From an uncultured Eubacteriales bacterium (GTDB lineage Bacteria > Bacillota > Clostridia > Lachnospirales > Lachnospiraceae): a stretch of 49,412 nucleotides of DNA. Position numbers and translations under genes: made by a program. The notes below the pieces were generated by a model, which did no database searches, was not told the DNA's origin, and saw nothing but the letters and a program-made list of their open reading frames with translations. Where the stretch lies: NCBI GenBank assembly GCA_900316115.1, contig ONBN01000035.1, forward strand, positions 1 to 49,412, given 5' to 3'. Below, piece by piece: positions 4,096-49,412 of the stretch; positions within the stretch are counted from its first letter, which is position 1; every line of letters starts with the position of its first letter.

Positions 4096-4553
4096 TTACA
4101 AGCCCTCATTTCAATACTGGCGATCTCCTGCTCCTTTATGTATCCGCATTCCTTCAGGCCTGCTTTCATCACTTCCCGCCACATTCCCGGGGAAAGCCTG
4201 CATACTGTGTCATCACTTAATTTCACAAAGCAGGATTCTTCTTCACAACAGGTACTGCAGTCTGCGATCTTATACATATTTTTACGGCTAATGGCTCCGA
4301 TATTTTCAAGCACATTCACCATACGGTAAATCGTTGCCGGGCCGATATTTTTATCTTTTTTCTGAACCTTAAAATAAATCTCCTTACAGCAGGAGCACTC
4401 CTCCTCCAGAATAATATCCAGGATCGTCCTTCGCTGTCTGGTAATCCTGCAGCCCTGTTCCCGAAGCTTCTGGATCACCATGTCTTTCTGCATTTTTGTC
4501 CGCTCATATGGCTGGGACTCCTTTACGGTTTCTTCCTTTCGTTCTCCCACCAT
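4083..4553 (-). CDS. Fur-family transcriptional regulator
   Basis: 156 residues. It has the Fur winged helix (KLREQGCRITRQRRTILDIIL ... GPATIYRMVNVLENIGAI) followed by a cysteine-rich dimerisation half: CSCC near residue 55, CSTCCEEESC and CKC at the end. The double CxxC-like pairs suggest a structural zinc. The usual His-rich sensing motif is reduced, so the sensed metal or signal is uncertain (Fe, Zn or peroxide are possible). AGGAGGTGAG directly before the ATG sets the start. The gene overlaps the dtxR-like gene downstream. Confidence 0.85.
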   Translation of the reverse strand: MVGERKEETVKESQPYERTKMQKDMVIQKLREQGCRITRQRRTILDIILEEECSCCKEIYFKVQKKDKNIGPATIYRMVNVLENIGAISRKNMYKIADCSTCCEEESCFVKLSDDTVCRLSPGMWREVMKAGLKECGYIKEQEIASIEMRACKCEA

Positions 4554-4586
4554 AACTCACCTCCTGTTACTCTGGCTGATGCAGCA

Positions 4587-4616
4587 ACAGCCTGCACCCT
4601 GTTGGATGCAGGCTGT
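4587..4616. terminator. Hairpin between feoB and fur
   Basis: ACAGCCTGCA pairs perfectly with TGCAGGCTGT across a ten-base loop. No T-run follows on either strand, so it may be a weak or Rho-assisted terminator, or an mRNA end-stabilising hairpin after feoB. Confidence 0.5.
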
Positions 4617-4681
4617 CATTGATCATACCTGTAAAATATTCTGCTTCAGTAAAACACTGTCTGTAAAAGTTTTTATCCTAA

Positions 4682-6835
4682 TTAGGCTTTTACCTTTACA
4701 TTTAATGTATTGCTCTCTTTGTATGGTCTGAACAGCATGTAAATGAAGAATGCAACCAGTACGAAAGCAACAACTGTACCAATACCGAATGTTCCGGCTG
4801 TGATCAGTGTACCGATCTGATAGATGCAAAGTGCAACTACATAAGCAAGACCACACTGATATCCGATTGCGAACCAGAACCATTTTCTGTTATTCATCTC
4901 TCTCTTGATAGCTCCCATTGCAGCGAAGCAAGGTGCACACAGAAGGTTGAATACCAGGAATCCGTATGCTGCAACTGGTGTCATAACCTGTGCCAGGTTG
5001 CCCCAGATCTCAGCACCGTCTTCTGCAACTTCAGCAAATCCGAACAGCATACCGAAGGTAGCTACTACGTTCTCTTTTGCGATCAGACCAGACACAGCAG
5101 CAACTGCCATCTTCCAGCCTTCTCCGGCTTTTGTCCAGCCCAGAGGTCCAAAGATCCATGCGATTGCAGAACCGATCTTTGCAAGAATACTGTTGTTCAG
5201 TTCCTCTACCATTCCGAAGGAACCGCCTTCCCATCCGAAGCCCATTAAGAACCACAGAACGATGGTGGAAAGAAGGATGATAGTACCAGCCTTTTTGATG
5301 AAGGACCAGCCTCTCTCCCACATACTTCTTAAAATGTTACCAGCTGTTGGCCAGTGGTATGCCGGAAGCTCCATAACGAATGGTGCCGGATCACCAGCGA
5401 ACATTTTTGTTTTCTTTAAGATAATACCAGAGCAGATGATTGCAGCAATACCTACGAAGTAAGAACTTGTAGCAACCCATCCGCTGTTACCGAAGAATGC
5501 ACCTGCGATCATAGCGATGATCGGAAGTTTTGCTCCACAAGGAACGAAAGTAGTTGTCATAATGGTCATCTTACGGTCTCTGTCGTTCTCGATAGTACGG
5601 GAAGCCATAACGCCAGGAACACCACATCCGGAACCGATCAGCATAGGAATGAAAGATTTACCGGAAAGACCGAATTTACGGAAGATTCTGTCCATGATGA
5701 ATGCAACACGAGCCATGTATCCACAGGACTCAAGGAATGCAAGGAAGAAGAACAGAACCAGCATCTGCGGTACGAAACCAAGTACAGCACCAACACCGGC
5801 AACAATACCATCCAGGATCAGACCCTGCAGCCATGCAGCACAGTGAACTGCTTCCAGTGCAGACTCGATTGCCGGAGGAATGATCTCACCAAAGAGAACA
5901 TCGTTTGTCCAGTCAGTTACAATAGTACCAACAGTTGTTACAGATACATAATATACGATGAACATTACAACTGCGAAGATCGGAAGTGCAAGCCAGCGGT
6001 TTGTCACAATACGGTCGATCTTATCAGATGTTGTAAGCTTCTTGCCTTTTGCGGACTTTGTATAGCACTGTCCGATAATGGAAGAAATATATACATAACG
6101 CTCATTTGTGATAATACTCTCTGTATCATCATCAAATTTATCCTCCAGAGCCTTAACCTCAGCAGATACATCCGGAACACTCTTCATCTGCTCTGTGATC
6201 TTGTTATCTTTCTCGATGAGCTTGATAGCGAAGAAACGCTTCTGATCATCAGCAACAACGCCTGTAAGCTTTGACTCAACAGTCTTGATCACATCTTCAA
6301 CATCCTGTGCAAATTCATGAACAGGTGTTACGCTGCCTTTCTTCTGTGCAGCTGCGATTGCTTTCTCAGCTGCCTTTGTGATACCGGTTCCTTTCAGAGC
6401 GGAGATCTCAACAACTTCACAGCCAAGCTTTTTGCTTAATTTGTCAATATGTATTTTATTTCCTGTCTTCTGAACCAGGTCCATCATGTTGACAGCCATA
6501 ACAACCGGAATGCCAAGCTCCATGATCTGAGTGGACAGATACAGGTTTCTTTCAAGGTTAGTACCATCAACGATATTGATGATAGCATCTGGTCTTTCAT
6601 TGATCAGATAATTTCTGGCTACTACTTCCTCCAGTGTGTATGGGGAAAGAGAATAAATACCAGGAAGGTCCATGATGATTACATCTTTGTGTCCTTTTAA
6701 ACGACCTTCTTTTTTCTCAACGGTTACGCCCGGCCAGTTACCAACAAACTGGTTGGATCCTGTCAGCGCATTGAACAATGTTGTTTTGCCGCAGTTCGGG
6801 TTACCTGCAAGAGCAATCTTAATCGACATTTTCAT
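4682..6835 (-). CDS. feoB: Ferrous iron transport protein B
   Basis: 717 residues. It is the GTP-driven Fe(II) importer of the cytoplasmic membrane. The N-terminal G domain shows G1 GNPNCGKTT, the switch region NWPGVTVEKKEG, G3 DLPGIYSL and G4 NMMD. The membrane half carries two Gate motifs with their cysteines (SGCGVPGVMA and TFVPCGAKLPI) and many hydrophobic segments ending near FVLVAFFIYMLF. Length is normal for the family. Two feoA genes lie upstream in the same direction, forming an iron uptake operon. A palindrome of the GTTAG-N6-CTAAC type sits in the 100-base gap between feoA and feoB. The operon promoter overlaps another copy of the same palindrome. Confidence 0.97.
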   Translation of the reverse strand: MKMSIKIALAGNPNCGKTTLFNALTGSNQFVGNWPGVTVEKKEGRLKGHKDVIIMDLPGIYSLSPYTLEEVVARNYLINERPDAIINIVDGTNLERNLYLSTQIMELGIPVVMAVNMMDLVQKTGNKIHIDKLSKKLGCEVVEISALKGTGITKAAEKAIAAAQKKGSVTPVHEFAQDVEDVIKTVESKLTGVVADDQKRFFAIKLIEKDNKITEQMKSVPDVSAEVKALEDKFDDDTESIITNERYVYISSIIGQCYTKSAKGKKLTTSDKIDRIVTNRWLALPIFAVVMFIVYYVSVTTVGTIVTDWTNDVLFGEIIPPAIESALEAVHCAAWLQGLILDGIVAGVGAVLGFVPQMLVLFFFLAFLESCGYMARVAFIMDRIFRKFGLSGKSFIPMLIGSGCGVPGVMASRTIENDRDRKMTIMTTTFVPCGAKLPIIAMIAGAFFGNSGWVATSSYFVGIAAIICSGIILKKTKMFAGDPAPFVMELPAYHWPTAGNILRSMWERGWSFIKKAGTIILLSTIVLWFLMGFGWEGGSFGMVEELNNSILAKIGSAIAWIFGPLGWTKAGEGWKMAVAAVSGLIAKENVVATFGMLFGFAEVAEDGAEIWGNLAQVMTPVAAYGFLVFNLLCAPCFAAMGAIKREMNNRKWFWFAIGYQCGLAYVVALCIYQIGTLITAGTFGIGTVVAFVLVAFFIYMLFRPYKESNTLNVKVKA

Positions 6836-37825: not shown

Positions 37826-38122
37826 TTTATTCGGATACAGTAAAAGAATCATTGGCAAATTTGCAATCATTTCTGTTGCATTGTAGTAGAAAAGATCTTG
37901 GTTATATATCATGCGAGGCTTTCGTAGATTTCGACTGCGCTAGCTTCTCCAAGATTTGCATTGTCTGAGCAAAGCGAGTTTTGCAAATCTTGGAGATAAT
38001 AAGCGTGCGGGAGAAATCCGAAAACGAAGCCCTGATATATAAACATATCTTTTCTAATTAATGCAACATAAACAAAATAATTATAAAATTTGCCAAATGA
38101 TATTTTACTGTATCCTTTATTC
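37826..38122. mobile_element. 283-bp palindromic MITE-like element with 7-bp target duplication
   Basis: The element (37833-38115) begins GGATACAGTAAAA and ends with its exact inverse, TTTTACTGTATCC. The two arms of about 130 bases match along nearly their whole length (roughly 80 percent), meeting at the perfect pair CTCCAAGATTTGCA/TGCAAATCTTGGAG around a loop of about 20 bases. It is flanked on both sides by TTTATTC (37826-37832 and 38116-38122), a target-site duplication. It carries no gene. The right copy of the duplication contains the stop codon of the ABC exporter gene. RNA from either strand would fold into one very long hairpin. Confidence 0.85.
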
Positions 38123-39681
38123 CGCCTGGATCCTCCAGCCTTCTGCCTTTTCACGAATCTGGGTAAACCGCTTATAAAGCCCATCCTTCTCCACCAGTTC
38201 TTCATGAGTACCACGCTCTGCAATGCGTCCATCCTCCACAACCAGGATCTGATCTGCATTCTGGATGGTAGCAAGCCTGTGTGCAATGGTAATAATGGTC
38301 TTTCCTCTGGTCAACTCTGAAATAGCAGACTGGATCAGATGCTCATTTTCAGGGTCAATGCTGGCAGTAGCCTCATCATGAATGATCACCGGTGCATTTT
38401 TCAGAATCGCACGGGCAATGGCAATCCTCTGCTTCTCACCACCAGAAAGCCTTTTTCCCGCCTCTCCTGCCGGAGTATCATAGCCCATAGGCAGCTTCTG
38501 GATAAATTCCTCACACTGTGCTGCTTTTGCGGCCGCATAAACCTGTTCATCTGTAGCATTTGGATTGCCCAGACGGATATTTTCTTTCAGGGAACACCGA
38601 AACAGGAAATTGTCCTGTGTTACGAAGCTTACGTATTCAGAAAGCTGCGTCAGCGGCATATCCTTTATATTTACACCGCCAATGCAGATGGATTCTTCCG
38701 TAACATCCCAGAATCTGGCAATCAGCTTGGCAACTGTGGATTTTCCACTGTGAATTTCACCTGACGCATATTTTCAGAGAAAACCTCAAGCTTTGCCAGA
38801 GAACCTACCATGGAAATAGATAACATCACCGCCAGTGCTGCCTGAGGTGCTGTGATCGCTCCGCTGTTTTCCAGGGCCAGTGCCACAGGCAGTGTTCCGA
38901 TCAAGGTAGATGGAAACAGGGCAAAGCTCAGCTTCATGGTTACAAATGTAGAAGCAAGCCATTTCACAACAAAGGTGCAGAAATCATTGATAGCCCCTGC
39001 ATATTTCTCATAAGAAACTCCGGCACGGCCAAATGCCTTGATCACTTCGATTCCTTCTATGTATTCCACAATGGTACTGTTCATGTAATTGCTGGACTGA
39101 TCATACTTGTTAAAATTTTCCCCGCTGATCTTAAAGGTAAATCCCATGCAGATAAAAGAAAGCAGAAATGTAACAAGAGATGCCAGTGCCAGCCTCCAGT
39201 CAATGCACAGCAGAGCGATAATACTTACAATGGGAAGCACAATATGTCCGGCTCCTTCCGGAATCATATGTGCAAGAGGCGGTTCCAGATTTTCGATCTT
39301 GTCCACCATCATATTCTTGATCTCACCAATGGTATGGTTTTCCACATTTCCCAAAGGCGCATGTAAGAAGCGGTCTGCAAGCCGCAGGCGCAGCCCTTCC
39401 AGGATCGTATATGACATGCTGTGGGAAGTGCCTGTGGAAAGACAAAACAGCAGGATCTTGGCAGCGTACACCACCAGTGCGATCACACACCATTTCACGA
39501 TCCCGGCAGCTGTGACCGTTCCTGCAACAAACAGGCAGATCATTTCATACATACAGTAAAATGGCACTAAGCCAAGCATTACGCTTAGTACTGACAAAAT
39601 AACCGGCAGGATCATTCGTTTCTTTTCGCCTTCGGCATATGCAAAAAGTAATTGTATCCAGCTTTTCTTTTTCGGCTCCAT
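38117..39681 (-). pseudogene. ABC exporter (fused permease-ATPase) with internal deletion
   Basis: The permease half reads MEPKKKSWIQLLFAYAEGEK to SENMRQVKFTVEN (six membrane helices) and stops at 38722 out of frame. A second frame starts inside Walker A (GKSTVAKLIARFWDV) and continues with VSFVTQDNFLF, LSGGEKQRIAIARAIL and DEATASIDPENEHL to 38117. About 60 residues between, including the first half of the nucleotide-binding domain, are missing. The joint is a shared GTGGAAAAT, which fits both the permease end (TVEN) and the P-loop (GGKST). A deletion between two such short repeats would give exactly this. The intact protein would be a ~585-residue drug- or lipid-type exporter. Confidence 0.85.
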
Positions 39682-45192: not shown

Positions 45193-45390
45193 TCAAGAGC
45201 AATTGCAATTGTTAAAAATTATATGTGTTTTCTCCGCAATCTCATTTACACGAACGCCGGAACATTTTCCAATTTTCATCATCTCAAGCATCATATGCTG
45301 TCTGTTTTCATCGCCTAATGCAATCAGAATTTTCCGACACCGTTCAAAATCACCTGCCAATTGAGCAATATCCTCTTTCGTGTACATCAT
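45193..45390 (-). pseudogene. Truncated ArsR-family regulator
   Basis: 65 codons. The first half of an ArsR winged helix is clear (FERCRKILIALGDENRQHMMLEMMKIG ... VRVNEIAEKT), then the sequence changes to HIIFNNCNCS and stops. The recognition helix and wing are gone, so it cannot bind DNA normally. Its ATG overlaps the nitroreductase stop (ATGA), showing they were one operon. Confidence 0.72.
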
Positions 45391-45883
45391 ACTACCTCGT
45401 GTCCTGTAACTGCTTCAAAATGATATTTTACTATTCCCAAATCAATCTTTGAATAAAAACCCCCAAGATTTTTGACAATTACTTTTCCGTCTTTTAACTC
45501 AAACAGAAATTTCTGCTGATTCATGGCAGTTGGTGCAAAACTTACTGCTTCCATGCCTGTTTTAAACCATTCTGTATCCTGATCTGCATGCCCCAGTTCC
45601 TGACATTTTAGCATAGTTTTCTCACCATAATATCCGGCTTTTTCCTGATCATTCTTGTTTCCAACAATCGCAATATAATTCTTTACATTTACAAATTTTC
45701 CATAGTGAGCCATAAAAGAATCGAAGCATTTTGGTTCATCATAAAAAGCCTGCATACTCAATCCACTTTCTTTATTTACTTCCTCAATACAGGCATTGAT
45801 AATCTCACGCTTAGATATTTCAATCGGTTGTTCCTTATACTGACGTACACTGTGTCTTTTTTCATAATTTCTAAAATATCCAT
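45387..45883 (-). pseudogene. Nitroreductase-family gene with frameshift and internal loss
   Basis: An ATG at 45883 behind GAGG starts MDILEIMKK, then the frame is lost at a run of six A; with seven A it would continue RHSVRQYKEQPIE, the usual opening. The rest reads YIAIVGNKNDQEKAGYYGEKTMLKCQELG and then jumps to DTEWFKTGMEAVSFAPTAMNQQKF, skipping about 50 residues that normally form the flavin-binding middle of the family. It ends KYHFEAVTGHEVV. The intact protein would be an FMN-dependent nitroreductase. Confidence 0.75.
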
Positions 45884-45908
45884 ATAATATCCTCTTTCGT
45901 TTAAACAT

Positions 45909-46206: not shown

Positions 46207-46235
46207 TTGACTTTATAGACCGATTAGTCTATTCT
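46207..46235 (+). promoter_or_regulatory. Promoter with TetR-type operator for the DUF3786 operon
   Basis: TTGACT (46207-46212), 17 bases, TATTCT (46230-46235). The spacer holds the palindrome ATAGAC-CGATTA-GTCTAT (46215-46232), a typical TetR-family operator shape, so the operon's own TetR protein probably represses it. Confidence 0.65.
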
Positions 46236-46279
46236 GTAAATATATTATAGTATATCTGATACTTAGAGGGATTAGTTAT

Positions 46280-46918
46280 ATGATAAATACGATTACTAAT
46301 TATGAAAAAACAAAAATTTCTATGGCACGCATTTTCCTGCAATACGATCAGTCAGCAATGATACGTAAATATTCATTAGAACATGATTCTGACTGGTTAT
46401 ATATCACTTTTGTCAACCGTAGCTATCGCATTAGCAGAAAAACGGGAAATATTCAGTGGTCAGCTAATAAATTTGAAACAGTCTGTGAAGCCGGTCATGA
46501 TGAAACAATGACCATTTATGATGTGTTATGTTATGCAGACGATGCATGCCATCTGTCACATGAATTTGTAAATATAAGCAGTCTTTCCTCTGTCCGAACA
46601 GGAAATCTTTCCCAGAACAGCGGATTTTTTCAGAATACTGCTGAATTTTTTAACGGAAAAACCGCTGAATTACGTAATGCCTGTATAGCTCTTTCCGGAA
46701 AGGAACTGGGAAAAGGAGATGTTGCTTTCGAATTGAAACTTTTTCCTTTTTTGCCAATTATAATTCGTTTCTGGGAAGCGGATGATGAGTTCCCGGCAAG
46801 CCTTCAAATTCTTGCAGACAAGAATATTTTAGATTACATGCATTATGAAACGCTTATGTTTGCACTTACACATCTGTTTTCCAGACTGAAGGAGGAAATG
46901 CGAAATGAAGAAAGGTGA
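46280..46918 (+). CDS. DUF3786 domain protein
   Basis: 212 residues, cytosolic. Recognised as DUF3786 by the C-terminal LPIIIRFWEADDEFPASLQILADKNILDYMHYETLMFALTHLFSRL. The function of the family is not known; I recall it from anaerobes and methanogens, sometimes near corrinoid or methyl-transfer genes. It is the first gene of the operon; its end overlaps the TetR gene by 14 bases, so the two are coupled. AT-rich leader with AGAGGGATTAG before the ATG. Confidence 0.78.
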   Translation: MINTITNYEKTKISMARIFLQYDQSAMIRKYSLEHDSDWLYITFVNRSYRISRKTGNIQWSANKFETVCEAGHDETMTIYDVLCYADDACHLSHEFVNISSLSSVRTGNLSQNSGFFQNTAEFFNGKTAELRNACIALSGKELGKGDVAFELKLFPFLPIIIRFWEADDEFPASLQILADKNILDYMHYETLMFALTHLFSRLKEEMRNEER

Positions 46919-47486
46919 GGAATCCAGACAACGCCTGATCGAATGTTCTGCTGAATTATTTTGGAAAAATGGGTATTCTGCCACTGGAATCAGCGAAATT
47001 CTCAAACAAACAGGACTTCCAAAAGGATCTTTTTATTTTTATTTCAAAAGCAAGGATGATCTGGCAGCAGCAGTGACGGAATACTATCAAAAAATCTTAC
47101 TGGAACAATTTCAAAGCAGTTCTCATGGAAATGACTGGGAAAGTTTTATAGAAGAAATCTTCGATTATTTATTCGGAAGGGCAACTGGACAGACATTTGC
47201 AGGCTGCCCGTATGCAGTGATGGGCATGGAAACAGCCCTTAGCAAGCCCACACTTGCATCTGTATTTATGGAGGGGATAAAAAAATTCGAGCAGATTTTC
47301 CAGAAAGTACTGCTATATTCCGGATTGCCACAAGATCATGCAGCGATTTTTTCACGGCGTATGCTTTCCAACTATCAGGGATATCTTCTTCTTGAGCGAA
47401 TCAGCGGTGATATCTCATATTTGAAAAATGCCAAAAAAAATATGATTGAAATGTACCGGGAATACCGGTCATATCATGGAATCTGA
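46905..47486 (+). CDS. TetR/AcrR-family transcriptional regulator
   Basis: 193 residues. The N-terminal helix-turn-helix is intact (RQRLIECSAELFWKNGYSATGISEILKQTGLPKGSFYFYFKSKDDLAAAV). The C-terminal ligand domain has AGCPYAVMGMETA, like the YxaF/LmrA group. It probably represses its own operon through the ATAGAC-N6-GTCTAT palindrome. GGAGGAAATGCG before the ATG. The inducer is unknown. Confidence 0.9.
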   Translation: MKKGEESRQRLIECSAELFWKNGYSATGISEILKQTGLPKGSFYFYFKSKDDLAAAVTEYYQKILLEQFQSSSHGNDWESFIEEIFDYLFGRATGQTFAGCPYAVMGMETALSKPTLASVFMEGIKKFEQIFQKVLLYSGLPQDHAAIFSRRMLSNYQGYLLLERISGDISYLKNAKKNMIEMYREYRSYHGI

Positions 47487-47497
47487 GAGGAACTTAT

Positions 47498-48160
47498 ATG
47501 AGTACAGTAATTCTTTCCTGCACTACTCTTCTGGAATATGTACAGCAGGCTCAGAAGATCTACAATACGGACTTTCCCATCATTGAATTAAATCGTCAAT
47601 ACCACATAGAACCCTCAAAAATGAAAGAACACATTCTTCAGACACTTTCCAGTTTGCCGTCAGATGTGGATACAGTTCTTGTAGCTATGGGATTCTGTGG
47701 CGGATCATGGCAGGATGTGTCCTGCTCTAAAACCCTGGTGATCCCCAGAGTTGCTGACTGTGTTGCGCTTACACTAACCACACCGGAACAATATGCCCCG
47801 GATCTGAAAGAACCAGGGCATATGTATCTGTTCGGAAATGGAGAAAATGGATTTTCTGTTCAGACCATTTATAAAAGTCTTCTGAAAGAATATGATAAAG
47901 AAATGGCTGATATTGTTTTCAACATGTACTTTGATCATTATTACCATCTGGATATTATTGACAATGGTCTGTACGACTGTTATGACCTGGATTATGTGGA
48001 ACGTGCACAGGCAGATGCTGACAGAATTCATACAGAACTGGATTTTGTGCCAGGAAGTAATATTCTCCTTGAAAAGCTGGTATCTGGACGCTGGGATAAT
48101 CGGTTTTTGATCGTTCAGCCGAATATGACAATCACTCAGGGAACATTTTTTGATTGCTGA
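47498..48160 (+). CDS. DUF1638 domain protein
   Basis: 220 residues. Recognised as DUF1638 by VLVAMGFCGGSWQDV, LVIPRVADCVALTL and MYLFGNGENGFSVQTI. Cysteines sit in the CGGSW and RVADC motifs, so metal or cofactor binding is possible. I recall the family mostly from methanogens and acetogens near corrinoid methyltransferase genes; its activity is unknown. It begins eleven bases after the TetR gene, with GAGAGGAACTTAT as ribosome site. Confidence 0.78.
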   Translation: MSTVILSCTTLLEYVQQAQKIYNTDFPIIELNRQYHIEPSKMKEHILQTLSSLPSDVDTVLVAMGFCGGSWQDVSCSKTLVIPRVADCVALTLTTPEQYAPDLKEPGHMYLFGNGENGFSVQTIYKSLLKEYDKEMADIVFNMYFDHYYHLDIIDNGLYDCYDLDYVERAQADADRIHTELDFVPGSNILLEKLVSGRWDNRFLIVQPNMTITQGTFFDC

Positions 48161-48174
48161 AAAAGGAAAATTTC

Positions 48175-48591
48175 ATGAAAAACAACAGACTATTACGAAC
48201 ATTGCAAAAAACAGTTTCTGAAGATGAAATTTTTAAACTGTCTAATCATACTCTTCCGCATATCAGTGAATTTAACAGGTCTGTAATTCTGGAAATGCTG
48301 CAGGACGAATTGCTGACACAGGAGGAAATTTCGGAAGAAAAGATAACTGCTCTCAAAAATACACTGGAAAATTATCTTCAAATTTATCTTCACGACCAGA
48401 AAGCGGCTTGGAAATGGATTATATTGTCCTGTGTCTATCTCTGTTTTATATGCCACAAACCGCTACATCCGCAGGAAGTGGTTCATTATATTATTGCACA
48501 GGACAACAATCAGACAATATATTACTGCCCTATGAAATCTGTGAAAGGTGATACAGCATGTGTTTTTTGTGTTTGCCGGAAAATTATATAA
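48175..48591 (+). CDS. DUF2115-like (UPF0305) cysteine-rich protein
   Basis: 138 residues, helical. The C-terminal part (YLCFICHKPLHP and then YYCPMKSVKGDTACVFCVC) matches my memory of DUF2115/UPF0305, a family known mainly from methanogenic archaea, whose hallmark is KPLHP and a C-P-x-K...CxFC cluster. The four Cys may hold zinc or an iron-sulfur cluster. AAAAAGGAAAATTTC favours the ATG at 48175. It is the last gene of the operon and ends beside the terminator of the rRNA/tRNA transcript from the other strand. Confidence 0.6.
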   Translation: MKNNRLLRTLQKTVSEDEIFKLSNHTLPHISEFNRSVILEMLQDELLTQEEISEEKITALKNTLENYLQIYLHDQKAAWKWIILSCVYLCFICHKPLHPQEVVHYIIAQDNNQTIYYCPMKSVKGDTACVFCVCRKII

Positions 48592-48592
48592 C

Positions 48593-48616
48593 AAAAAACC
48601 CTTGAAAAATCAAGGG
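48593..48616 (-). terminator. Terminator of the rRNA-tRNA transcript
   Basis: CCCTTGA-TTTT-TCAAGGG on the minus strand followed by TTTTTT, ten bases after tRNA-Leu. Confidence 0.88.
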
Positions 48617-48626
48617 CTTTAATTAA

Positions 48627-48712
48627 TGCCGCAGACCGGAATCGAACCGGTACGGGTATCACTACCCACGGGATTTTAAGTCCCGGGCGTCTGCCAGTTC
48701 CGCCACTGCGGC
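48627..48712 (-). tRNA. tRNA-Leu (anticodon TAA)
   Basis: 86 bases with a long variable arm, anticodon stem CGGGA/TCCCG around CTTAAAA, acceptor GCCGCAG/CTGCGGC. CCA is not encoded. Last tRNA of the array. Confidence 0.97.
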
Positions 48713-48737
48713 ATGCATATGATTTAGTAAAATAGGA

Positions 48738-48810
48738 TGGGGCCTATAGGGCTCGAACCTATGACCCTCTGCTTGTAAGGCAGATGCTCTCCCAGCTGAG
48801 CTAAGACCCC
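48738..48810 (-). tRNA. tRNA-Val (anticodon TAC)
   Basis: 73 bases, acceptor GGGGTCT/AGGCCCC, anticodon stem TCTGC/GCAGA around CTTACAA. Confidence 0.97.
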
Positions 48811-48833
48811 ATAAAATTTGCTAAATAAAGCAA

Positions 48834-48907
48834 CGACCCGGAAGAGACTCGAACTCTCGACCTCCGCCGTGACAGGGCGGCGCTCCAACCAACTGAGCCA
48901 CCGGGCC
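48834..48907 (-). tRNA. tRNA-Asp (anticodon GTC)
   Basis: 74 bases, acceptor GGCCCGG/CCGGGTC, anticodon stem CCGCC/GGCGG around CTGTCAC. Confidence 0.97.
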
Positions 48908-48931
48908 AGAAAAATATTTATATAACAAAAA

Positions 48932-49005
48932 TGGACCTTCGGGGACTCGAACCCAGGACCGACCGGTTATGAGCCGGTTGCTCTAACCAACTGAGCTAAA
49001 GGTCC
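48932..49005 (-). tRNA. tRNA with CAT anticodon (Met or lysidine-modified Ile2)
   Basis: 74 bases, acceptor GGACCTT/AAGGTCC, anticodon stem ACCGG/CCGGT around CTCATAA. It is not the initiator type (no GGG/CCC anticodon stem pattern). Its body resembles bacterial Ile2 tRNA as well as elongator Met; tilS-dependent modification would decide. Confidence 0.9.
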
Positions 49006-49006
49006 A

Positions 49007-49079
49007 AGCCGATGATCGGACTCGAACCGATAACCTGCTGATTACAAATCAGCTGCTCTGCCAATTGAGCCACATCGGC
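49007..49079 (-). tRNA. tRNA-Thr (anticodon TGT)
   Basis: 73 bases, acceptor GCCGATG/CATCGGC, anticodon stem GCTGA/TCAGC around TTTGTAA. It lies one base from the CAT tRNA. Confidence 0.96.
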
Positions 49080-49136
49080 ACATAGAAAACATACCAAATG
49101 TCAGAGTTAAGCCTCTCAAAAATCTCATTTTGTAAG

Positions 49137-49208
49137 TGACTCCAAGGGGATTTGAACCCCTGTTACCGCCGTGAAAGGGCGGTGTCTTAACCGCTTGACC
49201 ATGGAGCC
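49137..49208 (-). tRNA. tRNA-Glu (anticodon TTC)
   Basis: 72 bases, acceptor GGCTCCA/TGGAGTC, anticodon stem CCGCC/GGCGG around CTTTCAC. Confidence 0.96.
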
Positions 49209-49224
49209 ATATTTTATTTTAAAA

Positions 49225-49297
49225 CTCCCCCTGTTGGACTCGAACCAACGACACTGCGGTTAACAGCCGCATGCTCTACCGACTGAGCTAAGGAGGA
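49225..49297 (-). tRNA. tRNA-Asn (anticodon GTT)
   Basis: 73 bases, acceptor TCCTCCT/AGGGGGA, anticodon stem TGCGG/CCGCA around CTGTTAA. It is the first tRNA after 23S rRNA. Confidence 0.96.
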
Positions 49298-49371
49298 ATA
49301 ACCTGAAAGTATCTTGTACCTTCAAAACCACATACATGCTGACATCCTTTTGGAATCTTTAACCTGCTTTT

Positions 49372-49412
49372 GGTCAAGCCCTCGACCGATTAGTACTGGT
49401 CAACTCCATACA
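49372..49412 (-). rRNA. 23S rRNA, 3' end (partial)
   Basis: The minus strand reads GGAGTTGACCAGTACTAATC followed by GGTCGAGGGCTTGACC, the conserved 3' end of bacterial 23S rRNA. The gene continues beyond the window. About 75 bases separate it from tRNA-Asn and contain no 5S gene. Confidence 0.93.

Follow-up and report, generated by a model that had tools for sequence, protein, structure and literature searches.

Here, we report the analysis of 49,412 nucleotides from an uncultured Eubacteriales bacterium of the Lachnospiraceae, a gut acetogen (GenBank assembly GCA_900316115.1, contig ONBN01000035.1; this whole stretch is called the window), close to the end of which lies a four-gene operon (46207 to 48591, promoter included) encoding a DUF3786 protein, a TetR-family repressor, a DUF1638 protein, and a diverged DUF2115 protein. 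On balance, the operon is probably a TetR-switched accessory module that keeps corrinoid protein usable, maintaining or restoring reduced corrinoid beside RACo-type reactivators. One-electron oxidation inactivates corrinoid proteins, which must then be rescued, a task for which RACo/RamA is well known in anaerobes. That the operon helps to keep cofactors working seems likely because relatives of its proteins accompany the machinery that re-activates B12-type cofactors. The link of the module to corrinoids is fairly well supported, and there is moderate support for a role in reactivation as opposed to supply. The source draft genome comprises 2.77 Mb in 107 contigs (~91% complete), of which the window is contig 9.

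Operon, repressor, and protein families

The original prediction, made from the letters of the window, had described four tightly packed plus-strand genes with these four domain assignments, behind a promoter and a TetR-type operator, and every part of that description was borne out. Open reading frame (ORF) calling placed the genes on the plus strand at 46280 to 48591, with a 14-base overlap between genes 1 and 2 and gaps of 11 and then 14 bases after it. All four proteins scored above their Pfam cut-offs. Gene 1 (46280 to 46918, 212 amino acids [aa]) matched DUF3786 (PF12654; 142.2 bits, cut-off 27, E = 1.7e-41), and gene 2 (46905 to 47486, 193 aa) matched TetR_N (PF00440; 51.3 bits, cut-off 24) and TetR_C_13_2 (PF21993; 32.7 bits, cut-off 27), which places it among the LmrA/YxaF-like TetR proteins. 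Gene 3 (47498 to 48160, 220 aa) matched DUF1638 over profile positions 2 to 161 of 161 (PF07796; 109.5 bits, cut-off 27, E = 2e-31). Gene 4 (48175 to 48591, 138 aa counted from the ATG) is a diverged member of DUF2115 (PF09888; 39.6 bits, cut-off 25), and its best score against the NCBIfam PRK01022 models for archaeal-type DUF2115 equivalogs was 42.5 bits (cut-off, 202).

A sigma-70-type promoter (TTGACT-17-TATTCT, 46207 to 46235, plus strand) was found by consensus scan with 9 of 12 matches, a weak call by itself (22 sites in the window against 10.4 in shuffles). Over it lies an inverted-repeat operator, ATAGAC-N6-GTCTAT (46215 to 46232), which fills most of the promoter spacer and extends three bases into the -10 hexamer. 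The core pattern, TAGAC-N6-GTCTA, occurred at one place in the draft, compared with 35 for a reversed control pattern. It was present in 11 of 193 loci (L001, L006, L012, L036, L045, L078, L086, L093, L100, L150, and L152), all of them TetR operons of the window's type from five or six genomes, since some loci are the same contig. A TetR gene together with DUF1638 was found in the window and at six other loci (L093, L150, L114, L120, L100, and L152). Among these seven operons, the operator was exact in five (the window, L093, L150, L100, and L152), while L120 carries a CAGAC variant and L114 an imperfect copy. Its placement matched across related operons, which carry TTGACA, TTGACT, or TTGATT 5' of the operator and a TATT-type sequence at its end, in the -10 region. 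The repressor thus looks autoregulatory, with a single target in the draft genome.

The nearest Protein Data Bank (PDB) chain to the repressor was YxaF (1sgm), with NemR (4yze) among the matches listed, and all 22 NCBIfam models listed for it scored below their cut-offs. Cys101 is invariant in the operon TetR proteins (7/7), and YxaF has no cysteine at the aligned position. A thiol-switch trigger through Cys101 is a guess with one conserved cysteine behind it.

In a DUF1638 subfamily alignment, Cys8, His36, and Cys88 were conserved in 52 of 52 rows and Cys67 in 51 of 52; a motif expression applied to 15 more distant rows found C[GSA] in 14 and DC in 14. AlphaFold gave confident models for DUF1638 and DUF3786 (predicted local distance difference test scores of 92.7 and 89.1). 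Foldseek found no credible fold for DUF1638 in the PDB (best E = 0.01, TMq ≤0.29 among the matches listed) or among viral models (best E = 0.0046, TMq up to 0.34), and none for DUF3786 in the PDB (best E = 0.26). PDB sequence searches with the three DUF proteins returned nothing better than E = 0.03. DUF2115 has a cysteine cluster close to its C terminus (C118, C129, C132, and C134), and a similar pattern is seen in the copy from Blautia sp. An81 (L150).

Association with corrinoid genes and recurrence

The original prediction tied DUF1638 and DUF3786 to corrinoid methyl-transfer genes and proposed a co-occurrence analysis. Run in bacteria (family, genus, and order samples), that analysis, together with gene neighborhoods and independent DUF1638 literature (PMC5764234), upholds the link of the DUFs to corrinoid chemistry. 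The family sample covered 200 genera with a single genome each; DUF1638 was above cut-off in 21, DUF3786 was found in 23, DUF2115 in 4, and the RACo_C_ter ATPase domain in 119. RACo was present in all genomes with DUF1638 (21/21), DUF3786 (23/23), or DUF2115 (4/4). By Fisher's test, co-occurrence with RACo gave p = 8e-6 for DUF1638 and 2.5e-6 for DUF3786 (still below 2e-5 without the window's genome), values that are only guides because the sampled genomes share ancestry. All four DUF2115 genomes had both DUF1638 and DUF3786 (p = 9e-5 and 1.4e-4; 9e-4 and 1.2e-3 without the window's genome). The DUF1638 count had been 22 before a match in G068 was dropped (21 bits, below cut-off; the ORF reads as a polysaccharide deacetylase, and the genome is without RACo).

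DUF3786 follows one kind of RACo in particular. Where a genome's best RACo match exceeded ~320 bits, it was labeled acsV-type; DUF3786 was present in 22 of the 23 family-sample genomes with acsV-type RACo, and acsV-type RACo in 22 of the 23 with DUF3786. At genus level (37 genomes), RACo was found in 31 and a stand-alone Met_synt_B12-like domain (PF02965, matched in relatives as short partial stretches) in exactly the other 6; DUF3786 occurred in 29 of the 31 and in none of the 6. All 7 DUF1638 genomes among 61 relatives carry RACo, and the window's genome has two RACo genes elsewhere and no PF02965. Of 27 genus genomes with acsV-type RACo, 26 had DUF3786 directly 3' of it on the same strand, the DUF3786 match starting 124 to 484 bases after that of RACo. 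The window's genome has this order too, acsC-acsE-acsV-DUF3786 at L082 (acsC and acsE by eye, RACo by hidden Markov model [HMM]), with the acsV-linked DUF3786 gene at positions 4361 to 5023 of that locus, directly downstream of the acsV-type RACo.

A 40-row DUF3786 tree set the operon's copy apart from this gene. One side held 20 rows (support, 100/100), mostly acsV-linked, of which 17 adjoin RACo by coordinates. On the other side, the operon's protein belonged to a clade of 13 rows (100/100), 11 of them beside DUF1638 and one fused to DUF2115 (the fusion is in G255). Many of these 13 rows were fetched because of DUF1638; seven other rows on that side, from genome-wide samples, all fell outside the clade. 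One locus (L145) is an exception, near DUF1638 and yet with an acsV-type DUF3786. By this tree, the module thus has its own DUF3786 clade, linked to acsV by paralogy.

DUF2115 was found in 7 genomes of a phylum sample of 398, the window's genome included and one match being below cut-off. Of the other six genomes, two (G464 and G270), which represent two further families, have stop-bearing or degraded DUF2115 adjoining DUF1638, with MarR-like genes near. DUF2115 is also fused to DUF2284, a predicted metal-binding domain, in G214 (L081, 8617 to 9624, by Pfam; L080 by eye), ~6 kb on the same contig from that genome's DUF3786 row in the 13-row clade. The sequence 3' of the L080 fusion reads by eye like a UroD-type methyltransferase.

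A nine-row DUF1638 alignment, used to scan a species-genome collection, matched 72 loci, none of them from the window's genome. Partner counts at these loci rest on home-made HMMs, and weak matches were not counted: TetR at 23 to 35 bits, EFR1 at 28 to 30 bits, UroD at 23 to 42 bits, CbiO matches to ordinary ABC transporters, and Rrf2 matches (64 to 75 bits) overlapping DUF1638 in L128, L130, and L136. The names cbiN, cbiQ, cbiB, cobD, cbiD, EFR1, MttB, UroD-type, MetH-like, MarR, Rrf2, AcsC, AcsE, and sbcC were given by eye, with no family search. DUF3786 lay on the same strand within ~1.3 kb of DUF1638 at 11 of the 72 loci, the operon's type of TetR beside DUF1638 at 6, and flavodoxin- or EFR1-type genes at 11; some partner (a redox, module, RACo, or corrinoid-enzyme gene or an Rrf2-type regulator) was in the fetched stretch at 24. 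A MetH-like gene follows DUF1638 in L106, and AcsE-like matches were found in L106 and L117. At four loci (L101, L104, L109, and L112), DUF1638 and an Rrf2-type regulator gene are arranged head-to-head, which hints at another mode of control for DUF1638.

Among the seven TetR operons, DUF3786 is present in six (not L100), flavodoxin in three (L100, L120, and L152), and DUF2115 in two (the window and An81). The original prediction would have fallen had the operon been confined to one strain; the module recurs in other species and across genera, though it is patchy and apparently dispensable.

Published genetics support a role for DUF1638 in corrinoid maintenance or reactivation. The account of Phaeobacter inhibens describes DUF1638 mutants that methionine rescues and a fitness pattern for DUF1638 that co-varies with those of the methionine synthase genes and of a RamA-like gene for B12 reactivation (PMC5764234). 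A 2025 report on Ruegeria pomeroyi gives DUF1638 and RamA as more abundant on N-osmolytes (PMC12478193), and the acsV clusters of Acetobacterium woodii (PMC3315566) and Eubacterium limosum (PMC5651825) are noted as holding hypothetical proteins.

Around the operon, a terminator-like hairpin (48599 to 48616, plus strand) stands 3' of gene 4 and ahead of a tRNA cluster, a kind of site that was no more frequent in the window than expected (3 against 2.7 in shuffles). The cluster has seven minus-strand genes within 48626 to 49412, starting with tRNA-Leu (48626 to 48713), and the contig apparently ends in a 23S rRNA gene (read by eye). On the other side, ~370 bases from the operon, a TM1586-type nitroreductase ORF (45387 to 45908, minus strand) has just 173 aa, with the profile matched in two stretches, and is possibly a shortened gene. 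Farther off, an ABC-exporter-like protein (by eye; 38117 to 39681, minus strand) is split into ORFs at 38722 to 39681 and 38117 to 38659 and may be a frameshifted gene.

Proposed mechanism and alternatives

In the reactivation scheme, TetR would bind 46215 to 46232 and block its own promoter until an inducer, possibly a thiol-reactive or oxidizing compound acting at Cys101, freed it. DUF3786, DUF1638, and DUF2115 would then be made together and return inactivated corrinoid protein to service. The DUF1638 site of Cys8, Cys67, Cys88, and His36 may bind a metal, an Fe-S cluster, or corrinoid, and the protein may take part in reductive reactivation. DUF3786 could dock on the corrinoid protein or RACo system, as its acsV-adjacent paralogue may, and DUF2115 with its cysteine cluster could be a further subunit handling metal or Fe-S. 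Electrons would come from RACo or from a flavodoxin or ferredoxin encoded elsewhere.

The corrinoid protein served would likewise be encoded elsewhere. A search of the draft for the B12-binding family gave a single match above cut-off, to a protein that is radical SAM-like, and an additional weak match in an apparent IMP dehydrogenase. This search of the draft revealed no corrinoid protein of the MetH or methyltransferase type, an absence that is not certain because the draft is ~91% complete. By exclusion, therefore, the Wood-Ljungdahl corrinoid iron-sulfur protein is the most likely client in this genome.

Several observations weigh against reactivation. The four proteins of the operon include no corrinoid protein, methyltransferase, or RACo (no RACo_C_ter ATPase domain) by Pfam, and the link to acsV runs through a paralogue, because the operon's DUF3786 lies outside the acsV-linked clade. 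The nearest rows outside its own clade have no visible corrinoid context; one, from the window's own genome (C55), is by an sbcC-like gene. RACo is common in the family (119/200), genomes with RACo and without these DUFs are frequent, and the co-occurrence is not reciprocal; inside RACo genomes, DUF1638 against DUF3786 gave only p = 0.005. The pattern is looser among 24 order-level genomes (RACo in 9, PF02965 in 7, both in 2, and DUF3786 in none). At 48 of the 72 DUF1638 loci, some on short or cut contigs, no partner of the kinds counted was found, and the stretches around the DUF2115 copies of G503, G551, G326, G367, and one of the two in G464 hold no DUF1638 by eye. Full operons are rare: just 6 of the 37 genus genomes had DUF1638 above cut-off, and this TetR stood beside DUF1638 only in the window's genome and G028. 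In Blautia Marseille-P3087 (L093, which G028 resembles), DUF1638 is broken, DUF3786 is shortened, and DUF2115 was not found; in An81, DUF3786 is broken. With these two nearest relatives partly broken, the window's copy is the only four-gene operon with every gene unbroken among the loci seen. Lastly, the P. inhibens authors propose no specific role for DUF1638 (PMC5764234).

We offer a more elaborate form of the reactivation scheme tentatively, as less likely than the plain one. The operon would then encode a stress-inducible corrinoid repair complex, in which a thiol-sensing TetR releases three proteins, with no solved relative found, that assemble into a Cys-ligated electron-delivery or cobalt-protecting complex and rescue the corrinoid iron-sulfur protein once the cell has been exposed to oxidants or electrophiles. 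In this form, acetogens would generally have DUF3786 as an unrecognized partner of RACo, and the module would have recruited a second DUF3786 clade.

Detoxification of electrophiles or oxidants is, on the whole, an unlikely explanation. Here, the NemR/YxaF-like TetR would respond to some reactive compound or a plant phenolic, the DUFs and flavodoxin-type partners would reduce or bind that compound, and the corrinoid links would be incidental. The PDB matches YxaF and NemR, the invariant Cys101, and the flavodoxin-like genes in three of the seven TetR operons all suit it, as do accounts of NemR and AltR, which rely on a key cysteine with an inverted-repeat operator (PMC13178969), and of YxaF/QdoR, which quercetin releases (PMC8481877). 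Yet YxaF itself lacks the cysteine, the window's operon has no detoxifying enzyme recognizable by Pfam, the DUF1638 genetics point to B12 reactivation (PMC5764234), and neither the cobalt genes next to the An81 operon nor the co-occurrence with RACo is explained.

Still more doubtful is a role in corrinoid or cobalt supply, in which the proteins would aid cobalt handling, corrinoid salvage, or insertion into apo-protein rather than redox reactivation. In An81, a CbiO-CbiK fusion gene on the same strand, with cbiM beyond it, ends 145 bases ahead of the operon, but the operon has its own operator-bearing promoter. Elsewhere, cbiB/cobD-like genes follow DUF1638 (L123) and a cbiD-like gene lies ~3.5 kb from a DUF2115-DUF1638 pair (L186), and the Cys/His sites suit metal binding; against this, the flavodoxin and EFR1 partners fit redox chemistry better, and DUF1638 of P. 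inhibens is described as behaving unlike essential B12-synthesis genes (PMC5764234).

The original prediction had offered cofactor maturation or methyl metabolism; the former comes close to the reactivation we favor, and the latter, in which the module would serve to demethylate methylated amines, methoxylated aromatics, or glycine betaine, is very improbable, for although DUF1638 relatives share loci with MttB- or UroD-type genes (L101, L103, and L136), the operon holds neither the substrate methyltransferase nor the corrinoid protein of a corrinoid demethylase (as that prediction had itself remarked), the sole B12-binding match above cut-off in the ~91% complete draft is radical SAM-like, and the draft has no second TAGAC-N6-GTCTA site that could recruit a distant methyltransferase.

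If reactivation is right, three unnamed families become tied to corrinoid rescue, and DUF1638 gains a regulated setting in gut bacteria. DUF3786 emerges as a near-constant neighbor of acsV in the genus, and the apparent single-site regulon, with its clear operator, opens the inducer to direct reporter testing.

Comparison with known systems

In the open-licence literature, no paper was found on the window's operon or on DUF3786 beside acsV; nothing was found there on DUF2115/UPF0305, and on DUF3786 only an unrelated Helicobacter methylation table. The closest published parallel is the B12-reactivation set of P. inhibens, a RamA-like DUF4445 protein with DUF1638 (PMC5764234), which shares with the window's genome the DUF1638 family and a RACo/RamA-type protein. 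There, as that paper describes it, DUF1638 ends an operon holding the B12-binding part of methionine synthase; the window's DUF1638, in contrast, accompanies DUF3786 and DUF2115 in a TetR operon, and the B12-binding search of the draft gave no MetH-like match.

Like the Wood-Ljungdahl carbonyl-branch clusters described for A. woodii and E. limosum (PMC3315566 and PMC5651825), the window's genome has acsC-acsE-acsV, followed by DUF3786; the hypothetical ORFs of those two clusters are not equated here with DUF3786. The window's operon differs in being separate, in drawing its DUF3786 from another clade, and in having its own repressor.

That repressor resembles NemR, AltR, and YxaF (QdoR) in its LmrA/YxaF-like C-terminal domain and in the inverted repeat at its own promoter. 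The TetR proteins of the window's type keep a sensor-domain cysteine among themselves, and the window's TetR controls different genes.

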